Shown piece after piece: positions 30,306 to 30,963 of a stretch of DNA of 64,000 nucleotides. The position numbers and the translations under genes were made by a program. The notes under the pieces are model-generated. The model was not told the DNA's origin. It saw only the letters and a list, made by a program, of their open reading frames with translations, and searched no databases. Every line of letters begins with the position of its first letter. Positions within the stretch are counted from its first letter, which is position 1. Origin of the DNA: Nitrospiria bacterium (GTDB lineage Bacteria; Nitrospirota; Nitrospiria; DASWJH01); the NCBI GenBank assembly GCA_036397255.1, contig DASWJH010000018.1, positions 1 through 64,000 of the forward strand. Reading direction: 5' to 3'.

Positions 30306-30323
30306 TGGTGGAGCGGAAGGGGA
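30306..30323 (-). pseudogene. Detached 3' end of a tRNA-Ala gene (last 18 nt with CCA)
   Basis: The 18 bases are identical to the 3' end of the intact tRNA-Ala at 30518-30535 (T-stem 3' strand, acceptor, discriminator and CCA). The sequence before it on the minus strand no longer forms a T-loop or anticodon arm. It is read as the 3' remnant of the tRNA gene into which a cassette was inserted. Confidence 0.75.
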
Positions 30324-30517
30324 ATCTCACACGCTCGTTTCTAGTGAACTCGCTTTCCCCAGGGGGCCAGCCCCCTAGGGCGTCCTGAAAATTCCAGGAC
30401 TGTGACCCCCGAAGAATAAGGGAGCCTCTCCCCTAAAACTCCTCGTTCGATCCCCCTCTACAATAATGTACTCAAATTGGGGGTAAGAAGTTGTTTTCCG
30501 GAATTGGGAAAAATGGA
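30324..30517 (-). other. Hairpin-rich segment between intact tRNA-Ala and its 3' remnant
   Basis: About 195 bp with no believable protein. Hairpins seen are AGGGGG/CCCCCT (30361-30376), GTCCTG/CAGGAC (30382-30400) and GGGAG/CTCCC (30420-30432). Near 30445-30455 the minus strand reads GGGGATCGAAC, matching in inverted orientation the T-arm complement of the tRNA. It may be a structured RNA, an old foldback element or the arm of the inserted cassette. Confidence 0.5.
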
Positions 30518-30593
30518 TGGTGGAGCGGAAGGGGATCGAACCCTCGACCTTCGCATTGCGAACGCGACGCTCTCCCAACTGAGCTACCGCCCC
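30518..30593 (-). tRNA. tRNA-Ala (anticodon CGC)
   Basis: The acceptor GGGGCGG/CCGCTCC contains the G3-U70 pair that marks alanine tRNAs. D-arm GCTC/GAGC, anticodon stem TCGCG/TGCGA with loop TTCGCAA (CGC, reads GCG), T-arm GAGGGTTCGATCCCCTT, discriminator A and encoded CCA (30518-30520) are all present. The first ten bases double as the end and TAG stop of the GIY-YIG gene upstream. Confidence 0.95.
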
Positions 30594-30862
30594 ACATTAA
30601 AACCACGAACTAATTCCTGAGGAAAGTTTGTTATTAAGCCTAGTCGTTTCTCCCGACCAGTCCCACTTTTAAAATATTTCTCCCTTGAAATTGCTTCTTC
30701 TCGCGTCTCAAATTTCTCGGAGTAAACAAGTTTGTATGGCTTCCATCCCTTTAACGAAGCAGTCCCCCCTGACCAATGTTCTTTTAAGCGCCGCTCCAAG
30801 TCATTCGTATGTCCAACATAAAAACGATTATTTCGAATCGACTTCAAAATATTAACATACAT
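30584..30862 (-). CDS. Small GIY-YIG nuclease-domain protein next to tRNA-Ala
   Basis: 92 aa. MYVNILKS gives the GIY strand, RFYVGHTNDLERRLKEH the YIG strand and the conserved Arg, and EEAISREKYFKSGTGREKRL the C-terminal helix with the conserved Glu. This is the stand-alone UvrC-like COG2827 group. ATG at 30862 is chosen because a longer frame would translate tRNA sequence. The ATG directly follows nt 38 of a broken tRNA-Ala, and its TAG stop is nt 8-10 of the intact tRNA-Ala. A homing-type role is inferred from this context. Confidence 0.85.
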   Translation of the reverse strand: MYVNILKSIRNNRFYVGHTNDLERRLKEHWSGGTASLKGWKPYKLVYSEKFETREEAISREKYFKSGTGREKRLGLITNFPQELVRGFNVGR

Positions 30863-30916
30863 CTGCGAACCAGCCGCTCCCTGCCTGCCGGCAGGTCCCA
30901 ACTGAGCTACCGCCCC
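30863..30916 (-). pseudogene. 5' half of a second tRNA-Ala gene, interrupted in the D-loop
   Basis: Reading from 30916, nt 1-21 (with the flanking base, 22 nt) are identical to the intact tRNA-Ala. Then comes a 16-bp palindrome (30880-30895), then 17 nt aligning to tRNA nt 22-38 (GAGCG, stem GCTGG, loop TTCGCAG). The GIY-YIG ATG follows at once. The different anticodon stem shows it is the remnant of a distinct tRNA-Ala allele, not a recent copy of the downstream gene. Confidence 0.75.
30880..30895. repeat. 16-bp GC palindrome inserted in the tRNA remnant D-loop
   Basis: CCTGCCTGCCGGCAGG sits exactly between tRNA nt 21 and 22 and equals bases 6631-6646 of the REP-like element. Confidence 0.85.
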
Positions 30917-30963
30917 ATACCAATTCAATATACTCTTATCTCTCCAGGGTAACTCCAACCTCT

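Follow-up and report, generated by a model that had tools for sequence, protein, structure and literature searches.

Phage SegB is a GIY-YIG homing endonuclease that cuts inside tRNA genes; it amplifies tRNA segments in tandem and adjoins tRNAs of many isotypes in phages (PMC13096335). It is the only near precedent that we found for the arrangement described here, and no account of GIY-YIG genes nested in tRNA genes turned up, in a literature search with preprints and subscription journals outside its coverage. A 2006 paper on GIY-YIG phylogenomics leaves an association with tRNA genes unmentioned. The window analyzed here is a stretch of 64,000 nucleotides from a Nitrospiria bacterium (contig DASWJH010000018.1 of assembly GCA_036397255.1, positions 1 to 64,000). 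Its GIY-YIG gene resembles SegB in that it lies outside any intron or intein, encodes a single GIY-YIG domain, adjoins its presumed target and has empty alleles elsewhere. The features of the locus, in the order in which they are read on the minus strand, are as follows.

30964..31440, minus strand: gene for a 158-aa TPR-like protein, the upstream neighbor and the synteny marker for the tRNA-Ala(CGC) locus (tblastn, 16 relatives)
30863..30916, minus strand: 5' remnant of a tRNA-Ala, nt 1-37 plus a D-loop palindrome; alignment score 49 against a shuffle maximum of 27
30880..30895, minus strand: palindrome CCTGCCGGCAGGCAGG, which interrupts the remnant in its D loop and recurs as a dispersed repeat in the source genome
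30584..30862, minus strand: GIY-YIG gene, 92 aa, PF01541, with catalytic Tyr4 changed to Asn and its stop codon within the tRNA
30518..30593, minus strand: intact tRNA-Ala(CGC) with encoded CCA, 64.9 bits, no further CGC copy being found in the genome
30306..30455, minus strand: conserved structured element ending in an exact 18-nt copy of the tRNA-Ala 3' end (30306-30323)
30268..30290, minus strand: putative intrinsic terminator of the tRNA transcription unit (consensus scan only)

The first-pass annotation had described this locus as a tRNA-Ala gene broken at the anticodon by a cassette consisting of the nuclease gene, a complete replacement tRNA and a structured spacer. Much of this layout was borne out. 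The 5' fragment is made up of GGGGCGGTAGCTCAGTTGGGA (30916-30896), 21 nt identical to the intact tRNA-Ala, the palindrome (30895-30880) and GAGCGGCTGGTTCGCAG (30879-30863). The identity and the interruption were as claimed; however, the tRNA homology stops at nt 37, in the anticodon loop, and the anticodon stem is unlike that of the intact copy. The ATG directly after the fragment, at 30862, does open a 92-aa GIY-YIG protein, which matches PF01541 with an E value of 1.2e-16 and 61.2 bits against a curated cut-off of 22.6. Since the reading frame stays open 5' of this ATG, across the remnant, the start was placed by family homology. The TAG stop (30586-30584) coincides with nt 8-10 of the complete tRNA-Ala(CGC) at 30593-30518, and the exact 18-nt copy of the tRNA 3' end, which ends at 30306, is followed by the terminator predicted at 30290-30268, both in agreement with the earlier description. 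Between remnant and intact tRNA there is only the 92-aa ORF and no integrase gene, and an Rfam scan of the window locus gave no match to an intron family. A genome search with this tRNA found no second close copy of tRNA-Ala(CGC), the next matches being 79% and 75% identical. Because the same architecture occurs in dozens of loci at other tRNAs, the arrangement in the window is not due to chance. Elsewhere in the window (27596-28767, minus strand), two neighboring type IV pilin-like genes share near-identical N-terminal halves.

The 195-bp spacer and its 3' copy, which had been taken as part of the cassette, proved to be a separate element. Three related genomes (G031, G036 and G042) have copies with 76-78% identity after the 3' end of a tRNA-Ala, in each case without a GIY gene, and a partial copy follows a tRNA-Ala(GGC) in the source genome (G000 C74). 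Since the element is present at loci free of the nuclease gene, and is thus independent of it, a cassette with both tRNA halves was rejected for its 3' half, and the proposed three-part cassette is two things side by side. The element, about 150 nt long, terminates with a copied 3' end of the local tRNA-Ala in the window as well as at L339, L340, L341 and L342, and it holds an inverted T-arm segment, GGGGATCGAAC. Six base pairs show double compensatory changes in a small alignment of five sequences. No Rfam family matched the spacer above its gathering threshold, and a known RNA was dismissed as its identity because the sub-threshold matches look like chance. The element is possibly a small mobile or regulatory RNA.

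Relatives of the same class show what the site looks like when empty. In 16 of them (tblastn), the TPR gene immediately precedes an intact tRNA-Ala(CGC) in the same orientation, and at this site none of the 16 has a GIY gene or a 5' fragment. Among 29 tRNA-Ala(CGC) loci of relatives without the nuclease gene, 27 are free of a second fragment and two carry 3' copies only; the cassette reading had been said to fail if such relatives kept the same fragments. The anticodon stem of the remnant, GGCTGG, is that of the tRNA-Ala(CGC) in most relatives, and the intact window copy has TCGCG. The remnant is also identical over GAGCGGCTGGTTCGCA to L091-L093, and the intact window tRNA has CGCG like L066. 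As the anticodon stem of the remnant matches that of the relatives, the broken tRNA-Ala looks like the resident copy and the intact one like another allele, a reading drawn from one locus. At L339, L341 and L079 (about 2690), 3' halves of tRNA-Ala(CGC) that start from the anticodon loop lie apart from an intact 5' half; in these three relatives they are remnants of the kind that integrative elements typically leave at an attachment site.

The arrangement is not confined to the window. When 84,980 species genomes were scanned, 80 loci were obtained, picked by protein similarity only, and 58 of these have a tRNA within 600 bp, co-oriented every time. Further copies from 24 of these genomes brought the set to 204 distinct ORFs. 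A tRNA lies within 300 bp of 112 of them, with some 35 anticodons represented; all 112 are co-oriented, and an antisense tRNA was found within 300 bp of none of the 204. The chance expectation is about 1% by our own estimate, which takes roughly 40-50 tRNAs per 3-Mb genome. The excess of tRNA junctions that the first-pass annotation had called for in this enzyme family is large. The class members that resemble housekeeping proteins behave differently: 25 of 29 have no tRNA within 300 bp, and none of these 25 has a match to a tRNA fragment. L035, the closest class relative that was found, sits at a tRNA-Asn with the same plan, and its remnant too has a hairpin in the D loop. The reading frame enters the tRNA in 21 of 51 loci. 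A GIY-YIG gene that splits one tRNA copy and has an intact one alongside is a recurrent unit in many phyla, and in relatives the site orthologous to the window locus is empty.

For 115 ORFs that had a tRNA close by, we aligned this tRNA with the sequence on the opposite side of the gene and required a score that exceeded, by a margin, the highest of 100 shuffles. A partial copy of the same tRNA was detected on the far side in 78 loci, and the remaining 37 had no significant far-side remnant. The remnants are polar. With the intact tRNA on the downstream side, 32 of 35 begin at nt 1-2 and are thus 5' pieces; with it upstream (class U), 41 of 43 extend to the 3' end. A third tRNA copy supplies the opposite end in 26 loci, which therefore have both 5' and 3' remnants. 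As a strand control, a library of 208 tRNAs was compared with the flanks and gave 120 sense and 1 antisense fragment matches. The proposed break at the anticodon holds for most loci of the downstream type, with 24 of 35 breakpoints inside the anticodon arm, but not for class U, whose 3' remnants usually begin within the D arm. At L133 and L213, two successive 5' remnants of tRNA-Tyr lie upstream of one GIY gene, each with its own TCCCGC..GCGGGA palindrome.

Hairpin inserts with a stem of at least 5 were present in 55 of the 78 remnants. In 5' remnants their most frequent site is the D loop, and in 3' remnants the T loop and the edge of the anticodon arm; some placements are on adjacent stem positions, a shift within the error of the alignment. 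The density of strict GC-rich palindromes in the remnants is 19 times that in the far flanks of the same loci. With no mismatch allowed, the palindrome of the window has 11 matches per strand in the source genome and its reversed control has 0; with up to 1 mismatch, the palindrome has 24 forward and 29 reverse matches. It occurs in 6 of 58 related genomes, only 2 of which carry a tRNA-linked GIY gene, and 3 genomes with such a gene are without the palindrome. Given this loose association between the palindrome family and the GIY gene, we read the hairpins as independent repeats, which would survive where a tRNA copy is expendable. By interrupting direct repeats, they may stabilize the cassette. 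Other dispersed palindromic repeats, GTCATTCCCG..CGGGAATGAC with nested CCTGCCTGCCGGCAGGCAGG, occur at 6579-6650 of the window and in other copies (L174-L180), forming palindromes inside the arms of palindromes.

The catalytic Tyr, Tyr, Arg and Glu are kept in 195, 198, 197 and 189 of 201 family members, respectively, and the first of them is replaced by Asn in the window copy alone. Given this change, the window copy has probably lost its activity and looks like a late stage. The protein is under purifying selection, with a median dN/dS of 0.125 over 54 pairs. Matches to homing endonucleases in PHROG were weak only. A search of 50,697 phage records with one family member gave no match, on which ground a phage origin was set aside. 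On the protein tree the tRNA types cluster, with 57 changes against 74-79 when shuffled. Sharing of tRNA type by nearest relatives across phyla (16 against a shuffled-label mean of 13) was not significant and thus gives no support for target specificity across phyla; the clustering may be vertical. Phylum left a weak signal on the same tree, with 46 changes where shuffled labels gave a mean of 60, and an earlier test with 31 labels gave no signal.

Presence and absence can be compared directly at a Gly-Leu tRNA locus that is orthologous in 30 species of Pedobacter: 28 are without the GIY gene, one has an intact gene with a remnant and one has a decayed copy. One of the species free of the gene aligns with the occupied one on both flanks and possibly keeps a short scar. 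Copies also accumulate within genomes. In Cyclobacterium xiamenense, an intact tRNA-Pro is followed by four units of gene plus remnant in tandem. Up to 18 GIY-YIG matches were found in a single genome of 1.1 Mb (G073, L213-L225), many of them at tRNAs of differing isotypes, which makes it a good system for the study of spread.

We propose that these genes belong to a widespread family of small, free-standing genes of the GIY-YIG homing type that colonize tRNA genes and persist beside an intact tRNA, a reading that we hold to be reasonably probable. The nuclease would cut a tRNA gene, in many cases at or close to the anticodon arm or a different loop. A copy with both the nuclease gene and tRNA sequence would then serve as the template for repair, by which the gene would come to lie in the tRNA locus in the same orientation and could be transcribed together with the tRNA. 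The cell would survive because one complete tRNA is present after repair, either built out of the incoming unit or brought along by it, and the displaced part of the resident tRNA would stay behind as a 5' or 3' remnant. Remnants interrupted by hairpins may persist because recombinational loss between direct repeats is reduced, and the cutting site may also have been removed. Counted against the homing explanation were the sharing of tRNA type across phyla, which was no greater than with shuffled labels, the 37 loci without a significant remnant, the D-arm starts of class U, and the tandem arrays, as local duplication explains their pattern without transfer. More tentatively, and with slightly less than even confidence, we suggest that the family represents a minimal mobile element that was formerly unrecognized. 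A single nuclease gene would enter tRNA genes of any isotype in many phyla, keep or supply one intact tRNA so that its loss costs the host, and leave polar remnants broken by hairpins.

The main rival is pure local amplification, in which a GIY-YIG gene beside a tRNA triggers tandem duplication of tRNA and gene together and the spare tRNAs decay, with no insertion. It would account for the tandem arrays, for truncated second gene copies and for the terminators duplicated in class U loci, and it has a parallel in the tRNA segments amplified by SegB in T6 (PMC13096335). By itself, however, amplification leaves unexplained the arrival at some 35 anticodons, the presence and absence at orthologous sites and the fact that the lost end of the remnant is nearly always toward the gene; we regard it as rather unlikely to be the whole explanation. 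The purifying selection, the constant co-orientation and the frames that enter the tRNA could instead point to a domesticated host nuclease, co-transcribed with tRNAs and acting on tRNA or DNA, with the remnants as by-products or processing signals. Against such a role stand the patchy distribution (2 of 30 Pedobacter loci, and absence from 28 of 29 tRNA-Ala(CGC) loci of class relatives), the highly variable copy number, the want of a fixed tRNA partner and the apparent inactivation of the window copy, and we consider it improbable.

It is very improbable that the GIY-YIG protein mobilizes dispersed palindromes, as RAYT does REP sequences. The 19-fold density of GC-rich palindromes in the remnants would suit this idea, but the expected co-occurrence with CCTGCCGGCAGGCAGG failed, with a tRNA-linked GIY gene in 2 of the 6 palindrome genomes, and unrelated hairpin families are found at different loci. 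A system of the REP/RAYT type was rejected since the palindromes are not tied to the presence of the protein. The 3' ends of tRNAs are the classic attachment sites of integrative elements, and the 3' copies in the relatives L079, L339 and L341 would be in keeping with a gene that travels as a passenger of an ordinary element with a tyrosine integrase and a tRNA attachment site. Yet the unit measures a few hundred bp and an integrase is absent, a 3'-end attachment site would account neither for 5' remnants nor for a gene that precedes the intact tRNA, and the remnants are interrupted by hairpins. We give this possibility almost no weight.

If the homing reading is correct, tRNA genes of many phyla harbor an apparently undescribed family of parasites, and their hosts include reduced genomes of the Patescibacteria type that carry at least a dozen copies. 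Many short GIY-YIG ORFs with ends that run into a tRNA, broken tRNA copies and some of the tandem tRNA duplications would then be explained. The family would be a chromosomal counterpart of phage SegB and would illustrate a natural route to a selfish gene that is hard to lose.

Several known systems share part of this architecture. Small GIY-YIG proteins of the UPF0213/COG2827 type (PDB 1ywl, 1zg2) are alike in sequence family, size and catalytic residues, but the housekeeping-type class members similar to them are mostly located away from tRNAs, unlike the tRNA-nested family. Group I introns with GIY-YIG genes in tRNA anticodons likewise interrupt the anticodon region, whereas the window locus is without an intron core by Rfam and, as a complete second tRNA is present, its tRNA is not restored by splicing. 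Integrative elements that restore a tRNA have in common with the family the tRNA-gene site, the reconstituted tRNA and the displaced fragment; they differ in that here there is no integrase, the unit is a few hundred bp and either end of the tRNA can be displaced. The SegB proteins of phages T4 and T6 come closest: they too are GIY-YIG proteins, free-standing, next to tRNAs of many isotypes and tied to tandem amplification of tRNA segments. The family described here differs from them in being chromosomal, 80-110 aa in size, always co-oriented, inside or abutting one tRNA, and flanked by polar remnants of that same tRNA with hairpin inserts. Cutting inside tRNA genes has been demonstrated for SegB and is inferred for the chromosomal family. 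A mechanism like that of SegB would fit the family best, and SegB is the strongest outside support for reading these genes as homing genes that target tRNA genes.
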